A stretch of 38,756 nucleotides of DNA, taken from IMG/VR virus record IMGVR_UViG_3300048588_000125, positions 1 to 38,756 of that record. One strand, 5' to 3'. Shown here piece after piece: positions 2,842 to 35,413 of the stretch. The notes below the pieces were generated by a model that saw only the letters and a list, made by a program, of their open reading frames with translations, was not told the origin of the DNA and did no database searches. A program made the translations under genes and the position numbers. Positions within the stretch are counted from its first letter, which is position 1. Each line of letters begins with the position of its first letter. The stretch is from a virus.

Positions 2842-3321
2842 ATGTTCGTTCAGATTAGAGAATTCCCGAACTATGTAGTGAATTCAGACGGTGAAGTTGT
2901 CAGCTTCGCTTACAGAAGGTGGGAAACGATGAAGGCGTGCAACTCAACTGGCTATGCTCAAGTTGGGTTATGGAAAAACGGTAAACGGTACCAGCGTTAC
3001 GTCCACGCGCTGGTTGCGGAGGCTTTCCTAGGAGAGCGTCCGTCAGGTAAACACATTAATCACCTTAATGGTAACAAGCTGGATAACCGGTCAGAAAATT
3101 TAGAATACTGCACCAGAAAAGAGAATGCTGAACACGCTCTTAGTATGGGGCTTTATAAGACAGGTGAGCAGCACGGTCGAGCGCGCTTAACGCTTGAACA
3201 AGTCGAATTCATACGCCAAGCAAGAAACCAGACCGCCAAAAGCTTAGCGGCCCAATTCGGGGTTAGCGCAAGCCATATACGACGTCTCAGACAAGGCTTG
3301 CGATGGACTGTCATTCTATAA
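2842..3321 (+). CDS. HNH homing endonuclease with NUMOD4-like N-terminus
   Basis: The 159-residue protein starts MFVQIREFPNYVVNSDGEVV, a NUMOD4-type beginning, then carries an HNH core (VHALVAEAF, then HINHLNGNKLDNRSENLEYC, about residues 55-95). It ends in a helix-turn-helix-like segment (TAKSLAAQFGVSASHIRRL). Such proteins cut DNA at specific sites and spread their own gene. It lies on the plus strand inside the leftward late operon and overlaps the end of a small leftward gene by 11 bases, which fits a freestanding insertion. A second HNH protein with the same MFVQI start is at 31155. Confidence 0.9.
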   Translation: MFVQIREFPNYVVNSDGEVVSFAYRRWETMKACNSTGYAQVGLWKNGKRYQRYVHALVAEAFLGERPSGKHINHLNGNKLDNRSENLEYCTRKENAEHALSMGLYKTGEQHGRARLTLEQVEFIRQARNQTAKSLAAQFGVSASHIRRLRQGLRWTVIL

Positions 3322-3463
3322 TACCCACCAGACACCATTTACCTTTCGGGTCTGGGTCTTTAGCGCGCAGCAGGATTCGCTTACCGTACGCCGATTCAAG
3401 TAAAAGGGCGTGGACGCCGGGATACATCCGACGCCACGTTGCAACAAAACGATATGTGCGCAT
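3311..3463 (-). CDS. 50-residue hypothetical protein
   Basis: The ATG at 3463 lies two bases after the TAA of the 460-residue virion protein gene, and the frame runs to TGA at 3311. The product starts MRTYRFVATWRRMYPGVHAL, is basic and ends CLVGIIE. No motif is recognised and no membrane segment is seen. The close coupling (TAATAATG) and filling of an otherwise empty gap support a real gene. Its 3' end overlaps the convergent HNH gene. The ribosome site (GGGAAC) is weak. Confidence 0.5.
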   Translation of the reverse strand: MRTYRFVATWRRMYPGVHALLLESAYGKRILLRAKDPDPKGKWCLVGIIE

Positions 3464-3465
3464 TA

Positions 3466-4848
3466 TTAGTTCCCGTATTCGGGGTTCTTTTGCAAGGCTT
3501 GGTGTAAGGCAAGGACTGCGTTAGGTCCGCGTTGGGCGGCTTTCTCAAACAAGGCGGCGAACTTAGGGTTTTTCATTCCTTTAGCAAGCTTGTCGAGAAT
3601 AATCCCGCCCGCCTGATCGCCGTAACGCTTAATAGCCTCGCGACCGACCATGGACAAGATACCCGACACAGGTTCGCCGGTAGCAGCTGCACCCATAACA
3701 CCAGCTTGCCACGAGTTCAGGCCGATTTCGTTATTTGCAGCTGACCGGGATGCGCCGCTGTCAGCCATATCCTCAAGCAAACGCGCAAGATGCTTTTTGC
3801 GAAATAAGTCTTTGTTTGCGTCGCGCAGTTCCGGGCTGACCTTGGCAATCTGATCCATTTCAGCGTCGCCAAGAATTCCGTAAAGGTCTTTCTTTGCTGA
3901 TTTCGTCGCGCCGGTAGCAGTAAAATCCCGGATCTGTTCGCCCATATCCTTGCGGTAAGAGCCGAGATCAGACGGGTTAAATCCGACCTTCCCGGTACCA
4001 GCGATGTTTTTTCTGAGGCGGCGTAGTTCGCGTACAACCTCAGCTTTGCCAGGGTCCAAGGAATATTCGTCTATCTTACCTTCGATACGTCTGAGCAATT
4101 CGCCGGTCGGCAGGGAGGAATCAGCCGATTGCTCATAAATAGGTCGCATCTGGTTGTTGACGCCCGTTATAAATTCGTCGGCGCGGTCCGCCACCGCCTG
4201 GGAACTGGCAAACGGCGACGATATACCTTCGGTCCGGGCAAGCTCTGCGACGTCGCCAGCTTTGCCGCCAAGCTTTTCAATTTGCTTTTTTGTGCCGCCG
4301 AGCGATCGAATCGTGAATCGGTCCGCTACATCTTGGGTTTTGTCGCCCATTTTTGCCAGTAGGTCGCCCGCCTTCGAAGCGACAGCACCCGTCGCGCCGC
4401 CAAGAGCCGCACCTGTGATAGTGTCGAGCACCTGTTCACCAGCGTCACCATCCGAACGGCCGAAACCGCCAAGAGCGCCTTGTAGCGCGCCTTTCCCAGC
4501 AACTTCGGCAAGCTTTGCGCCTTTACCTGCATTCAAGAAACCAAGACCAGGGATAAAAGCGGTAGCGACGCCTCCGCCGATATCACCCGCAAGGTATGCG
4601 CCTGGATGCGCTTTTTGTGCTTCGTCGTATGCTTTGCGCGATTCGTCGCGAGCCTGGGTGTAACTCTTGTCTGTGAACATCGCTTCGAGGGCGCCGGTAG
4701 CTTCGTCAGCCAAGCCGAAGGACGCGCCTTGTGCAAGACCACGGACACCGGCCTCAAGAGTTGACGGTTTTTCCTTTAGGAACTCGTCAGGGTCGAAGTC
4801 CGAAGGCCCGCCGGCAAGGTAGGCGTCAGGGTTGAAATTACTGGCCAT
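3466..4848 (-). CDS. Internal virion / DNA ejection protein, 460 aa
   Basis: The protein has an acidic N-terminus (FNPDAYLAGG, FDPDEFLKEK), then Gly/Ala-rich segments at about residues 90-165 (GGGVATAFIPGLGFLNAG, ITGAALGGATGAVASKAG) that could insert into membranes, and a long helical, charged C-terminal half. No lysozyme motif is visible. It is the last of three large genes behind the nozzle gene, the place of ejection proteins in podovirus genomes such as T7 gp14-16 or P22 gp7, gp16 and gp20. It overlaps the upstream gene by 11 bases. The likely role is release from the head to form a DNA channel across the envelope. This rests on composition and position. Confidence 0.7.
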   Translation of the reverse strand: MASNFNPDAYLAGGPSDFDPDEFLKEKPSTLEAGVRGLAQGASFGLADEATGALEAMFTDKSYTQARDESRKAYDEAQKAHPGAYLAGDIGGGVATAFIPGLGFLNAGKGAKLAEVAGKGALQGALGGFGRSDGDAGEQVLDTITGAALGGATGAVASKAGDLLAKMGDKTQDVADRFTIRSLGGTKKQIEKLGGKAGDVAELARTEGISSPFASSQAVADRADEFITGVNNQMRPIYEQSADSSLPTGELLRRIEGKIDEYSLDPGKAEVVRELRRLRKNIAGTGKVGFNPSDLGSYRKDMGEQIRDFTATGATKSAKKDLYGILGDAEMDQIAKVSPELRDANKDLFRKKHLARLLEDMADSGASRSAANNEIGLNSWQAGVMGAAATGEPVSGILSMVGREAIKRYGDQAGGIILDKLAKGMKNPKFAALFEKAAQRGPNAVLALHQALQKNPEYGN

Positions 4849-7168
4849 ATTTACTCCGAAGCTTTTCCATTATTTTCGCCGCACGAGGGTCATTCGGGTT
4901 AGCTTGAGCCCATTGCGCCGCTTGCTGATCTTGCGGGTCTACGCTAGGTTGGGTAGTTCCGCCGCGCATTTTCAATTGTTCGTCAGCGTCCACACCTTCG
5001 CTGCCGATGCGAGCCCGCATTTCAGCCTCGAGTTTGGCCAGCTTACGCTCCTGCATTTCGGCAGAATCGGTCCAGGTCGGCAACATATCTATAAACCGCG
5101 CTTCCTCGTCTTTGCTGATAGCGCCACCTGATTGCAAGCGACCAAAGTTTTCAGCCGCTCTACGACGCGCTTCGGTGAAGTTGTTATCACCTACGACAGA
5201 GAAGGTGTTGTCCCCTGACTTGAGGGCGCTGCGCATATCATTCAAGCCTGTAAGCGTAGCCGAAGCATAGTTGACAGTTTTTTGTTGTCCCTCGTTAAGA
5301 GGTTTCTTGCCCTTCATATCTAGTTCACGCTCTTGGAGCGAATAGCTTCGGTTGGCGTTAGCCTGAGCGCGGTCGGCATTAAACTTCTGCATCAAAAGCG
5401 GTGAAGCTTTGTCGAGCTGGGCGGCGCTCATACCGGCAATTTTACTTTCGGCGTTAGGTATGAGTGTCGAAAGGAATGCTCGGGCGGCTTTCGATTCTTC
5501 CGAATTAGGGTCAGACCGTGCGAGGTCACGGTCAGCTGCAGACATACGCTGCTCAGTCATAAACTGATCTTCAGCCTGGGCGCGGTTTCCTTTTGCGTTA
5601 CCGACGTTCTGCGCTGCGAGCTTATCGAGCATTGAGCCGTCGTATTCCTTGCGGTCGGCTTCGGATACACTGGGCATTTTGCCGAGGTCTTGCATGCGGT
5701 TCTTGAGAATAACGTCTTGTTTCTGGGAGTTAGCGAAATCGGTCAGCCCTTTGCCCGCGACGTTTGCAATAGACATATAACCTTGTATGTCCTGAGCACT
5801 CTTGAGGTCGGCGTCTACGCCTTTCATTCGTTCGCGGTAAGCATCCAGAATGCTCTTGGACTTTGCGGCCTCTGGACTTAAAGCAGGGGTCGCTTCGGGA
5901 GACGACAGGTTCATGGCGCTAGGTTTAGGTCCGCTACCGTCTGTTCTGCGGTCATATTTTCTCTGTGCCGCCTCTGGGATTGGTAATCCGTCTGGTGTCG
6001 GGTAAAACGGCCTGTCAGCGGACTTTTGTGCCTGATTCTGGGCTACATACTTCGCCGCCATAGGGTCCATACCGGCTTTCACTGCAGCTGTGTACTGACT
6101 GGCCAATTCAGGCTGATTCGCGATAGTTTTGGGAAGCACAACCTCACCAGGGGTTAGCTGCGCTGGGAAAATATCATTCATTTCATTGTCGCCGGGGAAT
6201 GGACTGTCGCCAGGAACGACGCCACCATGGGCGAACGCGCCGCCTAAGGCACCGCCTACTTGAGCGCCTGCCATAGCTCCAGCAGGACCGCCTACAAAAG
6301 CTCCACCAACACCTCCTACCACAGTGCCAATCGCAGTTCCGACACCTTTACGCTTAGCGTCCTTTTGCTGTTTCGCCAGCATCCTACGGTTATAGTCGTC
6401 GGTTGCCTTGTTGTAAGACATCTGAGCGTTACCTTGCTGGGTACCTACTTTGTCTTTACGATAATCGTATTGTGACGCCGTGTTACGGTCCGAAGTTTGG
6501 TTTGTACGGTCCCAATTCGCTTGGTTCGCGCGTTGCTGCGCCTGCCAGTTGGCTTGTTGTTGACCTACGGTATTCGCAGTGTTGAACCGGGCGATAGCGT
6601 CTTGAGCCGCAGCCTTTTGAGCCTGTTCATTGAACTGCTGGCCGCGCATCGACGAAGCCATCCCACCCATACGAGCAGCGGCATCGCGCTGACCGGCTTG
6701 AGCCATAGCCACCTTCTCAAGGCTTGCAAGTGCCTCTTGATCGGTTGCAGCTTGCGCAGCCTGCATACGCGCGACAAGGTCCATCCCTGAACCTGTCATG
6801 CCGCGTCGCTGCATCTCTTGTTGAATCGCGCCTTGGCGGCCTCGGTTCTGCGCGTTTGTTTGCGTCTTAAGGCGGGCCATGTCCGCTTCATCTTGAAGGC
6901 TCAGACCTGAGCCCATTGCGCGTTCTTCGAGGGAGGAGAGCGCAGCGAGTTCGGCGTTTGCTAACCGAGGGTCTGTAGTAATGTTTCCGTATTGTGAGGC
7001 ACCCAGCTGAGCGAGGTCGCTTGGGTTCAAGCTATCAATCGCCAGTGGGTTTCCGGTCTGATACTGCGCAGCGCCGCCGTCGACAAACTCGTTCCCGGCG
7101 TTAATATAATCCCAAAGTGCGCGGTCTTCAGGGCTCATACGATCATAATTATCAGGCTTTTTAGCCAT
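4838..7168 (-). CDS. Large internal virion protein with glycine-zipper segment, 776 aa
   Basis: The N-terminal third is Gln/Ala-rich and helical. A glycine zipper follows at about residues 275-315 (GVGTAIGTVVGGVGGAF, then AGAQVGGALGGAFA). Next comes HGGVVPGDSPFPGDNEMND with PAQLTPGEVVLPKTIA, a motif I know from the ends of phage tape-measure and ejection proteins, where it follows a hydrophobic stretch. The C-terminal half is helical, Lys/Glu/Gln-rich and coiled-coil prone. It lies between two other predicted ejection proteins. The role is probably membrane penetration or DNA ejection. I see no enzymatic domain. Confidence 0.7.
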   Translation of the reverse strand: MAKKPDNYDRMSPEDRALWDYINAGNEFVDGGAAQYQTGNPLAIDSLNPSDLAQLGASQYGNITTDPRLANAELAALSSLEERAMGSGLSLQDEADMARLKTQTNAQNRGRQGAIQQEMQRRGMTGSGMDLVARMQAAQAATDQEALASLEKVAMAQAGQRDAAARMGGMASSMRGQQFNEQAQKAAAQDAIARFNTANTVGQQQANWQAQQRANQANWDRTNQTSDRNTASQYDYRKDKVGTQQGNAQMSYNKATDDYNRRMLAKQQKDAKRKGVGTAIGTVVGGVGGAFVGGPAGAMAGAQVGGALGGAFAHGGVVPGDSPFPGDNEMNDIFPAQLTPGEVVLPKTIANQPELASQYTAAVKAGMDPMAAKYVAQNQAQKSADRPFYPTPDGLPIPEAAQRKYDRRTDGSGPKPSAMNLSSPEATPALSPEAAKSKSILDAYRERMKGVDADLKSAQDIQGYMSIANVAGKGLTDFANSQKQDVILKNRMQDLGKMPSVSEADRKEYDGSMLDKLAAQNVGNAKGNRAQAEDQFMTEQRMSAADRDLARSDPNSEESKAARAFLSTLIPNAESKIAGMSAAQLDKASPLLMQKFNADRAQANANRSYSLQERELDMKGKKPLNEGQQKTVNYASATLTGLNDMRSALKSGDNTFSVVGDNNFTEARRRAAENFGRLQSGGAISKDEEARFIDMLPTWTDSAEMQERKLAKLEAEMRARIGSEGVDADEQLKMRGGTTQPSVDPQDQQAAQWAQANPNDPRAAKIMEKLRSKYGQ

Positions 7169-31154: not shown

Positions 31155-31607
31155 ATGTTTGTTCAGATCCCTGGCTATGCAAGATACTTAATAGATGATC
31201 AAGGCGTCGTAGTATCAACTCACAAAGGCAAGTGGAAGGTGTTAAAACCTTTCGTACAACAAGGCTCAGGCTATCTGCGAGTTGATCTGTGTGCGTCGGG
31301 CAAGGTGTTCAAACTGTCTGTTCATCGTCTAGTGCTTTTGGCGTTTGTCGGACACTCAAGTCTTGAAGTAAACCACAAAAACGGCGTTAAGACCGACAAC
31401 AGGCTTGAAAACCTTGAGTACTGTACAAGCAAGGAAAACACTGCTCACTCTTACGCCAACAACTTACAACAAACAAAATTTTCAAAAGCGCTGCTTGCCG
31501 AGGTCGTGTCCGCTAAAGGTACTATGTCGCATGCCGCAGCTGCTAAGAAATTCAGGCTTTCCAAAGCCTACGTAGGACATCTTTGGAAAGGTAAACACGA
31601 TGTTTGA
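31155..31607 (+). CDS. HNH homing endonuclease, second copy
   Basis: The 150-residue protein starts MFVQIPGYARYLIDDQGVVV (NUMOD4-like), then carries the HNH core VHRLVLLAF and VNHKNGVKTDNRLENLEYCT (about residues 57-98), and ends in a helix-turn-helix-like segment (SHAAAAKKFRLSKAYVGHLW). It is related to the HNH protein at 2842 along its whole length. It stands between primase and helicase genes in the same direction and overlaps the helicase start by eight bases. It is probably a freestanding homing endonuclease that targets a related phage. Confidence 0.9.
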   Translation: MFVQIPGYARYLIDDQGVVVSTHKGKWKVLKPFVQQGSGYLRVDLCASGKVFKLSVHRLVLLAFVGHSSLEVNHKNGVKTDNRLENLEYCTSKENTAHSYANNLQQTKFSKALLAEVVSAKGTMSHAAAAKKFRLSKAYVGHLWKGKHDV

Positions 31608-33051
31608 AAATTTCGACGGCTCGTCTCGCATCCCACGCCCTATCCAATCCGAAGCGCTCGCTTGGCTTGAAGCTAAACGCGAAAAGAAGCGCAAGGCTCT
31701 TGTGGGTCCAGTCGGCATGGGAAAGTCCGCAGTCATGCGCGCCTACCAAAAAGAGTTCGGCGGCGTAATCGTACCGCCTGTGAACGTGCTCGCTGATCAG
31801 CTTGAGCGCGACTACCCGGAAGTGAACTTGCTCAAAGGTCTTTCTAACTACCACTGTGAAGAGTGGGGCGAAGACTGCGAGACGGTTCGCTCTGTCAATG
31901 ACAACAAGTCTTGTGGTGATTGCCGGTACTCGAAGTGTCGGCAGAAGGTGATTGACGCTGAGCCGTCGATAGTCAACCCACTGGCTCTGTTCTACTCGAA
32001 ACAAGCGCCGCACAAGCCGTACCCCACAGTCTTGATTGACGAGTGTCACCGGCTCTTCTCGCTGCTGGAACTGGCCTGCTCTGACGAGTTCTCACACTCG
32101 CGCTACAAGTTCCCTGAAAAAATGGACAGCGTGAAGACTGTGGCCGATTGGCTGACGAAAGTCGCAATTCAGTATGCGGACTTGGCGAAAACCTACCGAG
32201 CACAAGATAACCTCAAGAAAGCTATGCAGGCGGCTAAGCGCTGCACGTCGATTTCAGTGTTGCGCGACCGAATGCTCACCAACCCTGCAAATTTCGTGTT
32301 TTGGTATGAGGAAAGGCAGCTGAAAAATGGCCTGGAAACCTACCTCAAGATCAGCCCGGTAGAGGTGCCTCGGGGTATCGTGAATGAGGTTTTAGGTCCC
32401 TATGAAGACCTGATTATCACGTCAGCTACCCTACCCCAGCGCTGGGCACGCAAGATATTCGGGACGGATGACTTCGAATACAAGGAACTCGACAGCCCTA
32501 TCCCGGTTGAAAACAGGCCAGTTTACGTGAAGCCCGCTGGCCTGACCGCTAAGTCCGACCCTTCCGAAGTAGCCGCTTGGATAAAGCAGCAAATGAGCCA
32601 ACACCCCGGTAACACAATCGTCCACGTTACCTATTCTATGGCTAAGGCGCTGACGCGGTTCTTTCCGCACGCTCTGACCCATACTGCCGAGACTAAGGAC
32701 GCGGTCATGGCTCGGTTCAAGGCCGAGGGCGGAATGTGGCTGGCTCCTGGCTGTGCTGAAGGTATCGACTTGCCCGGTAAGCAAGGTGAAACCAACCTTA
32801 TACCAATTTTGCCTTTTGCGAATATCGGCGCTCCGATTGTGGCGGCTCGCATGGCATTGCCCATGGGTCGCGCTGACTACGAACTCGATACACTGGTGAA
32901 CACGATACAGGCAGCTGGTCGCACGACTCGCGGTGCTGACGACAGGTCAACAACTGTCATTGGCGACGCCCGTATCATGCGTCTGATTCAAACACACAAG
33001 ACACAAATTCCACGCAGCTTTGTTGAGGCTGTGAAATACGTAACGAGGTGA
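31600..33051 (+). CDS. XPD/DinG-like Fe-S DNA helicase
   Basis: The 483-residue superfamily 2 helicase has Walker A GPVGMGKSA (residues 36-44), Walker B LIDECHRL (DECH at 147-150) and the C-terminal motif VI QAAGRTTRG. Between motifs I and II lies a cysteine group (Cys86, Cys93, Cys105, Cys108, Cys113) as in the 4Fe-4S domain of the XPD/DinG family. It would unwind DNA, probably 5' to 3', at the replication fork or in recombination. A GGAAAGG ribosome site lies in the end of the HNH gene. No DnaB-like helicase is present, so this may be the replicative helicase. Confidence 0.85.
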   Translation: MFENFDGSSRIPRPIQSEALAWLEAKREKKRKALVGPVGMGKSAVMRAYQKEFGGVIVPPVNVLADQLERDYPEVNLLKGLSNYHCEEWGEDCETVRSVNDNKSCGDCRYSKCRQKVIDAEPSIVNPLALFYSKQAPHKPYPTVLIDECHRLFSLLELACSDEFSHSRYKFPEKMDSVKTVADWLTKVAIQYADLAKTYRAQDNLKKAMQAAKRCTSISVLRDRMLTNPANFVFWYEERQLKNGLETYLKISPVEVPRGIVNEVLGPYEDLIITSATLPQRWARKIFGTDDFEYKELDSPIPVENRPVYVKPAGLTAKSDPSEVAAWIKQQMSQHPGNTIVHVTYSMAKALTRFFPHALTHTAETKDAVMARFKAEGGMWLAPGCAEGIDLPGKQGETNLIPILPFANIGAPIVAARMALPMGRADYELDTLVNTIQAAGRTTRGADDRSTTVIGDARIMRLIQTHKTQIPRSFVEAVKYVTR

Positions 33052-33797
33052 GGTTGTGCTATATGCTTTGGATTTATTTAGCGGCATTGGAGGCAACTCC
33101 ATTGGACTCAAAGACTACATCCGAACCGTTGCTTACTGTGAAGCAGACAGACATGCTCAAGCCGTGCTTCTTTCCAGAATGTCAGATGGAGAGCTTCCAG
33201 CCGCACCAATCTGCACAGATGTTACTCGGCTGGATGGATATGTACTCAGGGATAAAGTGGACATCATCATTGCCGGGTTCCCATGCCAGGACATTAGCGT
33301 TGCAGGCAAGGGTGCAGGATTGGAAGGACAGCGTTCAGGACTTTTTTATGAAGTCGTGCGCTTGGCCAAAGAAGTCCAGCCCACTTTCCTATTCCTTGAA
33401 AACGTCCCAACAATCCGAACACGGGGATTGGACCAAGTTGTCGAAGAACTTACCGAAGCAGGGTATGACTGTCGATGGACTATGCTTTCCGCTGCAGACG
33501 TTGGTGCCACGCAAATCCGTGAAAGGTGGTTTCTACTGGCTAACACCAAGAGCGGCTGTGATAGAAGAGAGCTACCAAACTTACTTGAAGAGAATGAAAG
33601 CCAGCCCAAACCCCAAAAACAATACAAAGACAAGACCAGGGAATCTATCGCAGCAGCTTGGTGGGCCAGCGAACCCAACGTGGGTCGAGTGGCTGATGGG
33701 GGTTACCCAGCGAGTGGACCGCCTTAAACGACTTGGGAATGCAGTGGTTCCGCAGCAAGCGAAAACCGCTTTTGAAATCCTGATGGGGATTAAATAA
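33048..33797 (+). CDS. Overlapping reading frame carrying methyltransferase motif X and a possible overprinted protein
   Basis: A 250-codon frame runs out of phase with the methyltransferase over its whole length; a GTG at 33048 or the ATG at 33063 could start it. Its last 31 residues (VTQRVDRLKRLGNAVVPQQA onward) are methyltransferase motif X. Upstream, in the overlapping part, it reads SHARTLALQARVQDW, LPKQGMTVDGLCFPLQTLVP, GGFYWLTP and NPTWVEWLMG. This order resembles a phage protein type I recall as separate genes near cytosine methyltransferases. It may be genuine overprinting, or those proteins may themselves come from this shifted frame. Translation is unproven. Confidence 0.4.
   Translation: MRLCYMLWIYLAALEATPLDSKTTSEPLLTVKQTDMLKPCFFPECQMESFQPHQSAQMLLGWMDMYSGIKWTSSLPGSHARTLALQARVQDWKDSVQDFFMKSCAWPKKSSPLSYSLKTSQQSEHGDWTKLSKNLPKQGMTVDGLCFPLQTLVPRKSVKGGFYWLTPRAAVIEESYQTYLKRMKASPNPKNNTKTRPGNLSQQLGGPANPTWVEWLMGVTQRVDRLKRLGNAVVPQQAKTAFEILMGIK
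33056..33727 (+). CDS. dcm: DNA cytosine-5 methyltransferase, frameshifted near its C-terminus
   Basis: The start is a GTG at 33056 after GAGGTGAGG. Motif I DLFSGIGG (about residues 6-13), catalytic Cys77 in GFPCQDIS, ENV (115-117) and QIRER (153-157) are all present, so the catalytic domain looks intact. This frame ends after GRVADGGYPASGPP. If one base of the G5 run at 33698-33702 is skipped, the reading continues as VTQRVDRLKRLGNAVVPQQ, which is motif X, to a stop at 33795-33797, giving about 246 residues, a usual size. This is either a natural or sequencing indel or +1 slippage on GGGGG. The corrected end overlaps the next ATG (TAATG), which favours the longer product as ancestral. Activity may protect the phage from restriction. 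Confidence 0.8.
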   Translation: MLYALDLFSGIGGNSIGLKDYIRTVAYCEADRHAQAVLLSRMSDGELPAAPICTDVTRLDGYVLRDKVDIIIAGFPCQDISVAGKGAGLEGQRSGLFYEVVRLAKEVQPTFLFLENVPTIRTRGLDQVVEELTEAGYDCRWTMLSAADVGATQIRERWFLLANTKSGCDRRELPNLLEENESQPKPQKQYKDKTRESIAAAWWASEPNVGRVADGGYPASGPP

Positions 33798-35413
33798 TGG
33801 CAAATGAAAAACTGACAGAAGACCAGCTTAACTGGTTACGCAAACACTACCATTCGGGCGACTGGTCCAGCCTCGCCAAAGCCTTCAACAAGGAATTCAA
33901 GACCAAAAAAAGCGCCGACGCTGTGCGTATCTTGTGGGGTAGGTACAAGAGCAAGGACCTATCTGGCTCTGAAGTACCTTTCGCCGACTTCACCCGTGAA
34001 TCCTTCGGTTCCGATAAGCTGAATATTAAAGAAGGTCGCTACTTTGTGACCGGCATCATGCCGCTCAATCCGATCGGCGCGCACATGCAATTCGGCAAAG
34101 CGGTTGGCGGGCGCATGGCTGGGCACGTCGATCATGAAGCATTTCTTACGTTGCGCGATACGGTTGACGCGGGGTTTTGCAGCCCTGTTCTGCTTACTGG
34201 TACTGCCCATACGCAGCTGGGTCAAAAGCAGCCGAACTACTACGACCCACACCTGAAACCGTTTCGCGATTGGATGACTTCGGGCGTGACATTCAACAAA
34301 CACCTGCAGGCCGTGGACATGCGCATCAATCCGCAGCAAGTCAAACCGCTGACAGGGCTGCAAGGTATCAAGACCGATTCGTCGCTTATCGTCGCTCACC
34401 CGCGCCAGCACATGCGGTTTATCAACCAAGGCAACGAGTTGCTGCCTTACCTTCATCACTCCACGGGCTGTTTAAACGGCCCTGATATGTATCAAGATAA
34501 CCGTATTGGACACCTTGCACGCCATGCTCATAAGGTAGGCGGCTTGATTGTCGAACTTAAAGGGGACCGATTTTTTGTACGTCAAGTCCAGTTCGACGAC
34601 GAAGGCGGATTTTACGACCTCGGCGTGTATCGTCAGTACGGTGAAAAGCCGAAATTTGTGCGACCTGAATGGGTCAAAATCGGCGACCTGCATTTTGGAC
34701 ACCATGACGAAGACTTGATGCGCGTTCTCGGCGAAATTCTTGGGTTGTTGCAACCTAAACGTATCATTGTCGAGGACGCTCGCGACGGCTATTCGCACAC
34801 TCACCATATTCGGAACATGCCTGACAAGGTTAAGCGTTTGCAATCGGACTGGGGTAAGAGCATCAAAGCCGAAGTCGAACTGGTCAAGGCAATGATGTCC
34901 CGGATTGAAGGTATGGTGCCGAAAGACTGCCAGATTGTGTTCACAGACGACAACCATGGACGTTTCCTAAAACGGTACGTCGACGAATGCCGTTACCTGG
35001 ACGACGTCGTTAACTTTGAGTTTGGGCATGAACTGCAGCTATTAAACCTGAAACGCAAAAACCTGTGGCAAGAACTGATCGACCCAAACAAGAAATACCG
35101 GTGGTTACACGCTAACCAGGACTTCATTATTGACAACTACCAGCTGTCCAACCATGGACATCTCGGCCTTAATGGGTCGCGCAACACCAAAGGCGCATAC
35201 CCCAAGATTGCCGACGCCCACGGTCACTCGCCCTTTATCGAAGACGATCACTGGAGAGCGGGTCACTGGTCGCAGGATCGCCACGGCTACAACCAAGGCC
35301 CAAGCTCTTGGATGCCTTCACTGATTGTTGGTTACCCAGGCGGGTACCTGCAGCAAATCGTTCCTATCAAAGCTCCAAAAGACCGCAAACCTTTTGAATG
35401 GAGGCTTACATGA
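33797..35413 (+). CDS. Calcineurin-like metallophosphoesterase with N-terminal SANT/Myb-like domain, 538 aa
   Basis: The N-terminus (LTEDQLNWLRKHYHSGDWSS to GRYKSK, about residues 5-52) resembles a SANT/Myb-type DNA-binding helix bundle. The second half carries metal-site motifs of the calcineurin-like or Mre11-like class: GDLHFGHHD (about 296-304), DDNHGRF (about 384-390), NHGH (about 451) and DAHGHSP (about 473-479). Such enzymes are phosphodiesterases or nucleases. Phage T5 A1, needed for DNA transfer and host DNA breakdown, is reported to be of this class, so host DNA degradation is a possible role. The ATG shares a base with the stop of the corrected methyltransferase frame. Confidence 0.75.
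   Translation: MANEKLTEDQLNWLRKHYHSGDWSSLAKAFNKEFKTKKSADAVRILWGRYKSKDLSGSEVPFADFTRESFGSDKLNIKEGRYFVTGIMPLNPIGAHMQFGKAVGGRMAGHVDHEAFLTLRDTVDAGFCSPVLLTGTAHTQLGQKQPNYYDPHLKPFRDWMTSGVTFNKHLQAVDMRINPQQVKPLTGLQGIKTDSSLIVAHPRQHMRFINQGNELLPYLHHSTGCLNGPDMYQDNRIGHLARHAHKVGGLIVELKGDRFFVRQVQFDDEGGFYDLGVYRQYGEKPKFVRPEWVKIGDLHFGHHDEDLMRVLGEILGLLQPKRIIVEDARDGYSHTHHIRNMPDKVKRLQSDWGKSIKAEVELVKAMMSRIEGMVPKDCQIVFTDDNHGRFLKRYVDECRYLDDVVNFEFGHELQLLNLKRKNLWQELIDPNKKYRWLHANQDFIIDNYQLSNHGHLGLNGSRNTKGAYPKIADAHGHSPFIEDDHWRAGHWSQDRHGYNQGPSSWMPSLIVGYPGGYLQQIVPIKAPKDRKPFEWRLT

Follow-up and report, generated by a model that had tools for sequence, protein, structure and literature searches.

When the reading frame of a cytosine methyltransferase ends before its last conserved motif, and a second frame runs open through the whole gene, does the locus encode a damaged enzyme, a frameshifted one or two proteins? 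This question is raised by the IMG/VR phage contig IMGVR_UViG_3300048588_000125, of which positions 1-38,756 were examined (38,756 nucleotides, hereafter the window). Our analysis makes it very probable that two overlapping frames of the locus together specify a single cytosine-5 DNA methyltransferase of two subunits. The first frame, frame A (33056-33727, plus strand), had been taken in an earlier sequence-only reading for a dcm-type methyltransferase that loses motif X after GGGGG, and matches to PF00145 (E=3e-42) and phrog_363 (4e-53) confirm that assignment. Its translation places motif I (LFSGIGG, 33074-33094), motif IV (GFPCQ, including PCQ with the catalytic Cys, 33275-33289), motif VI (ENV, 33398-33406) and motif VIII (QIRERW, 33512-33529) in one shared frame, as expected of the alpha subunit of a C5-methyltransferase carrying motifs I-VIII. 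Alignment to M.HhaI is limited to A residues 4-162, and the frame stops 9 codons past the GGG at 33698 with the tail GGYPASGPP, lacking motif X. Motif IX is likewise absent in-frame, A reading EPNVGRVADG at 33672-33701.

Both motifs are instead found in frame B, the +1 frame, which stays open across the whole gene, from 33048 up to its stop codon at 33797, and has a probable ATG at 33063 (33063-33797, plus strand). Frame B of the contig holds a target-recognition region, motif IX and motif X, and the locus differs in this from a single-chain C5-methyltransferase, as IX and X lie in another frame than I-VIII. The recognition region (WLTPRAAV...ESYQTYLKRMKASPNPKNNTKTRPGNLSQQLGGPA, 33537-33671) was assigned by its match to the beta frame of a relative (L097), which covers 43 aa of frame B with E=2e-9, whereas frame A of the same stretch gave no match better than 0.02 among the relatives. 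Motif IX (NPTWVEWLMG, 33672-33701) is conserved in alignments A2 and A4 and lies in-frame in single-chain relatives. Its end overlaps the stretch GGGGGTT (33698-33704), which carries a net +1 base compared with the relatives and thereby exchanges the tails of A and B. From 33702 onward, motif X (LKRLGNAVVPQQ; LGNAVVPQQ, 33732-33758 by translation) is read in a frame other than A, here B, while nearly all relatives have it in A. The expectation that motif X would be restored in the other frame up to the stop at 33797 was borne out, and this stop shares one base with the ATG that follows.

The neighbouring genes are closely packed around this locus. A helicase gene (Helicase_C_2, 31600-33051) ends 4 bases upstream of the GTG of alpha at 33056, and a downstream gene of 538 aa (33797-35413, no Pfam match) has as its first base the final one of the stop codon at 33797. 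The arrangement suggests that the helicase gene, the methyltransferase locus and the 538-aa gene may be one translation unit. An HNH endonuclease gene (PF13392, 31155-31607) lies directly upstream of the helicase gene.

To judge whether frame B is coding, stop codons were compared with the number expected after synonymous codon shuffling that keeps the amino acids and codon usage of A. Between 33056 and 33697 frame B of the contig contains 0 stops against 5.6 expected, and zero was reached in 0 of 20,000 shuffles, in agreement with the earlier remark that the alternative frame is open over the whole gene; the +2 frame, shuffled in the same way, has 14 against 13.9. A first count among relatives had used loci chosen by B, and because this choice biased it, the count was repeated and replaced with 95 viral genes picked by frame A alone. 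From motif IV to motif X, these show 7 stops in frame B against 358 expected, with 92 of the 95 fully open, although the sampled genes share ancestry and the counts are not independent events. The third frame of the same genes is not depleted (907 against 960), and the controls behave alike, with a stop ratio of 0.99 in 159 neighbouring ORFs of the same loci and 95 stops against 100 expected in the +1 frame of single-chain relatives. In bacterial dcm genes, stops are not depleted in the +1 frame where a canonical motif IX lies in-frame, whereas genes lacking one have an open +1 frame that reads LNPxWVEWLMGxPxGWT.

The depletion begins about 15 codons upstream of GFPC or, in the MNELALF group, where the gene itself starts; opposite motifs IV-VIII the observed and expected stops are 2/66 and 0/88, the latter from ENV to motif VIII, and in the recognition region they are 0/68. 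About 10 codons beyond motif IX the depletion ceases, with 53 stops against 43 expected. That frame A is open between motifs VIII and IX is owed in part to the way in which the sample was selected.

Substitutions were then assigned to codon positions; a codon of B consists of the second and third bases of an A codon and the first base of the next, so that the wobble position of A is the second position of B and the first base of A is the wobble position of B. Across 63 pairs of relatives, the ratio of third- to first-position differences, counted in A, is 2.2 in the N-terminus, 1.95 in IV-VIII and 1.7 in motif X; the recognition region, by contrast, gives 0.78. In close pairs the differences between VIII and IX fall almost solely at the wobble position of B (for example 27,4,1 and 32,5,6), whereas single-chain controls follow their own frame throughout and keep a ratio of 1.73 in the recognition region. 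Significant similarity in this region was found between B translations in 6192 pairs, compared with 2074 for A. As judged from these comparisons, frame B is not open by chance, and because substitutions between motifs VIII and IX fall at its wobble position, it is the frame selected as a protein there. Selection in both frames across relatives, which the sequence-only reading had put forward as a mark of overprinting, is thus present, B being followed between VIII and IX and A in the N-terminus, IV-VIII and X.

These data bear directly on the possibility that frame B is an untranslated shadow which a conserved dcm gene casts in antiphase, and that its protein family consists of antiphase ORFs wrongly called in databases. 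Nearly all B homologs are indeed antiphase to a dcm gene, and in the public annotation of phages SOVA965 and XFactor the antiphase ORF was called and the intact dcm left out. A shadow cannot, on the other hand, yield a depletion of 7 stops against 358, substitutions at the wobble position of B or in-frame homologs in single-chain enzymes, and we regard this explanation as scarcely credible. The earlier proposal that overprinting would fall if no homologs existed outside dcm antiphase translations is right about where nearly all homologs lie, yet suits this locus poorly, as B is selected all the same.

Frame B also appears to have a start of its own. Among 39 relatives whose B frame is interrupted upstream, 31 have an ATG after the last stop, against 11.6 expected, and an ATG together with a Shine-Dalgarno sequence is present at the B start in 17 against 2.5. 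In the contig, the stretch GAGGTGAGG (33045-33053, plus strand) may serve as a Shine-Dalgarno region shared by the GTG of alpha at 33056 and the ATG of beta at 33063; it contains GAGG at 33045-33048 and 33050-33053, 7 and 9 bases upstream of the two starts, a spacing that is suggestive only as a start signal for the predicted subunits.

A single chain could alternatively be made by programmed ribosomal frameshifting, passing from A to B after motif VIII and from B back to A after motif IX. The existence of relatives with the single-chain order I-VIII, recognition region, IX, X speaks for such a route, as does the slippery appearance of the G run in the contig. Most relatives, however, would require two frameshifts, and they lack the G5 run, so that no conserved slippery site is found at the junction. 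Frame B is moreover open and depleted of stops opposite IV-VIII, which frameshifting would not require, and its own ATG and Shine-Dalgarno sequence would be superfluous. We therefore consider frameshifting very unlikely and two proteins more likely on this sequence evidence, and the +1 frameshift product offered by the sequence-only reading was set aside, B having its own start and staying open opposite IV-VIII.

What, then, is the protein encoded by frame B? The motifs that the sequence-only reading linked to separate phage proteins near dcm genes proved real: B of the contig matches phrog_1008 (E=3e-11), as do 22 of the 22 related B proteins tested, and the supposed separate proteins are the beta frame itself. 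The PHROG families that match the beta frame are phrog_1008, 26627, 27243, 31772 and 35493, of which phrog_1008 and 31772 are labelled 'DNA methyltransferase' and the other three carry no function; the label of PHROG 1008 is silent on a beta subunit overlapping an alpha frame. In gp68 of Mycobacterium phage VRedHorse, motifs I-VIII, the repeats LPTPVARDFKG...LPTPSASDG, PEWMMGWPAGW and GNGVVPQQ all lie in one frame, and the B profile matches this protein in-frame (E=8e-8). A family of such single-chain relatives was collected, with the order I-VIII, recognition, IX, X, and the predicted model of one of them superposes on M.HhaI 12-321 with a Z of 21.4 and 3.1 A over 241 residues. Because the B-type region is in-frame in these single-chain relatives, B is, on sequence grounds, the recognition and motif IX half (beta) of the same enzyme, shifted to the other frame.

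The connection of B to the canonical motif IX runs through the single-chain relatives; the direct match of the B profile to canonical motif IX was not significant, only four canonical sequences being used. The B profile gave no match among PDB sequences, B alone had no Pfam match, and an AlphaFold model of beta alone was poor (pLDDT 60, pTM 0.26). We had considered that B might be a new protein family born by overprinting, an idea that was dropped once VRedHorse gp68 was found. An unrelated overprinted protein that merely shares the DNA, such as a regulator or an anti-restriction protein, would accord with the absence of Pfam and PDB matches to B alone, but B-type sequence lies in-frame between motifs VIII and X of single-chain enzymes, and genes with a canonical in-frame motif IX have no B-like frame; we judge such a protein highly improbable. 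Of the three possibilities raised by the sequence-only reading, a +1 frameshift product, a true overprinted gene and a protein family derived from the shifted frame of dcm, the second accordingly holds in part: both frames are coding and B is selected, but B has no unrelated new function, being part of the same enzyme.

Taken together, alpha (frame A) would supply the catalytic half with motifs I-VIII, and beta (frame B), starting a few bases downstream of the alpha start or opposite motif III/IV, would supply the target-recognition region and motif IX, the two assembling into one enzyme. We infer that both proteins are made, dimerise, are active and protect the phage DNA; assembly into one active enzyme is proposed by analogy with M.EcoHK31I and M.AquI. 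The two ORFs of M.AquI barely overlap, and for EcoHK31I, Lee, Kam and Shaw reportedly found in 1995 that the small subunit is encoded within the gene of the large one, in a different frame. Both M.EcoHK31I (YGGCCR) and M.AquI (CYCGRG) are two-polypeptide C5-methyltransferases; motif IX of the former is in the small subunit only and its predicted recognition domain in the large one, while in the latter alpha carries I-VIII and beta the distal variable region, IX and X (PMC3404938).

The contig resembles M.EcoHK31I in that motif IX lies on a second predicted protein, read from another frame within the alpha gene, and, compared by description, in a large subunit with I-VIII, to which the contig's relatives also add X. 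It differs in that the recognition region, as codon evolution and the single-chain relatives indicate, is in beta and not in the large subunit, and in that motif X is in beta and not at the alpha end, where nearly all relatives have it. Most relatives, with motif X closing alpha, would thus be M.EcoHK31I-like. The contig, in which the extra base at 33698-33704 would shift X onto beta while the pair loses no motif, would have the M.AquI partition of alpha I-VIII and beta recognition, IX and X, a likeness that hinges on the extra base being real; unlike the two consecutive ORFs of AquI, its frames are nested, B being open opposite the entire catalytic part. Single chains of the VRedHorse gp68 type share I-VIII, the LPTPxAxD recognition modules, the EWMMGWPxGW motif IX and motif X, but carry all parts in one frame, and their +1 frame is not depleted of stops. 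A motif IX in a second polypeptide (M.EcoHK31I) and the partition of the contig (M.AquI) are thus already known. Our literature search found no paper on overlapping frames in phage dcm genes and none on PHROG 1008; as far as the literature found shows, what is new is the extent in phages, the statistics for B coding, the recognition region in beta, the single-chain intermediate and the tail-swapped variant.

Is the extra base itself real? The one-base shift that the sequence-only reading placed at the G5 run (GGGGG, 33698-33702) stands as a net +1 specific to the contig, but it is not attributable to the G run alone and, against relatives, can be placed only somewhere within GGGGGTT; the relatives have neither a frame change nor a G5 run here. 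We give an even chance to the base having been introduced in sequencing or assembly, or by a newly arisen disabling mutation, the true locus being the ordinary nested form with X in alpha. The extra base is missing in all close relatives, no second contig of this phage that spans the junction was found when one was sought, and both frames past the extra base still resemble the tails of relatives, so that no decay is seen beyond it. Against this, an independent tail swap is present in the isolate genome of Blastococcus mobilis (L242, near 3024-4980), where beta reads EFVEWLMGFPPGVDRRRALGNAVVPQVAEHIG in one frame, and in four related phages from among the single-chain relatives (L307, L309, L311, L316) the recognition region, IX and X lie together in the +1 frame. 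As the pair in the contig retains every motif, the swap, read from sequence, need not be harmful. Because L242 is the one other locus with the tail-swapped form, out of about 227, the extra base may be erroneous or may have arisen recently by mutation.

A tentative proposal, which we hold to be possible but somewhat doubtful, is that the phage truly carries the extra base and makes a working enzyme, and that phage methyltransferases shift, one base at a time, among single-chain, AquI-like and EcoHK31I-like forms, with the recognition half free of the catalytic frame. Such steps would then fall upstream of the recognition region or downstream of motif IX, and the recognition half, with its repeatable WPTP modules, would evolve mainly in the frame of beta.

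The nested-frame split form turns out to be widespread in phages, whereas characterised examples are limited to one or two enzymes from bacteria. A beta query at E<=1e-3 matched 307 of the 50,697 records from phages, together with 11 plasmid records, the 307 including some single-chain forms and so not counting split enzymes alone. Those matches that were inspected lie mostly beneath genes annotated as cytosine methyltransferase. One search probe was a consensus written by hand, and only its matches were used. Because gene callers retain a single frame where two overlap, the annotation of hundreds of phage methyltransferases is incomplete or in the wrong frame; the public annotation of Stenotrophomonas phage SOVA965 (L087, 2360-2860) and Mycobacterium phage XFactor (L089, 1818-2546) shows the beta frame only and omits an intact alpha. 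A 'dcm' cloned from such a phage without beta would probably be inactive, and target predictions from the annotated protein use the wrong residues, because specificity appears to lie in the frame of beta.

The collected set shows a possible stepwise path from single-chain to nested two-subunit enzymes. In Mycobacterium phage Ochi17 and its relatives (L284, 1184-1943), a frame change just after ENV breaks the alpha frame, and the locus is annotated as two 'DNA methyltransferase' genes. The single-chain mycobacteriophage enzymes of alignment A5 (L285-L306) carry one to five LLPTPxAxDxxGG modules between VIII and IX, recalling multi-specific phage methyltransferases with several recognition modules.
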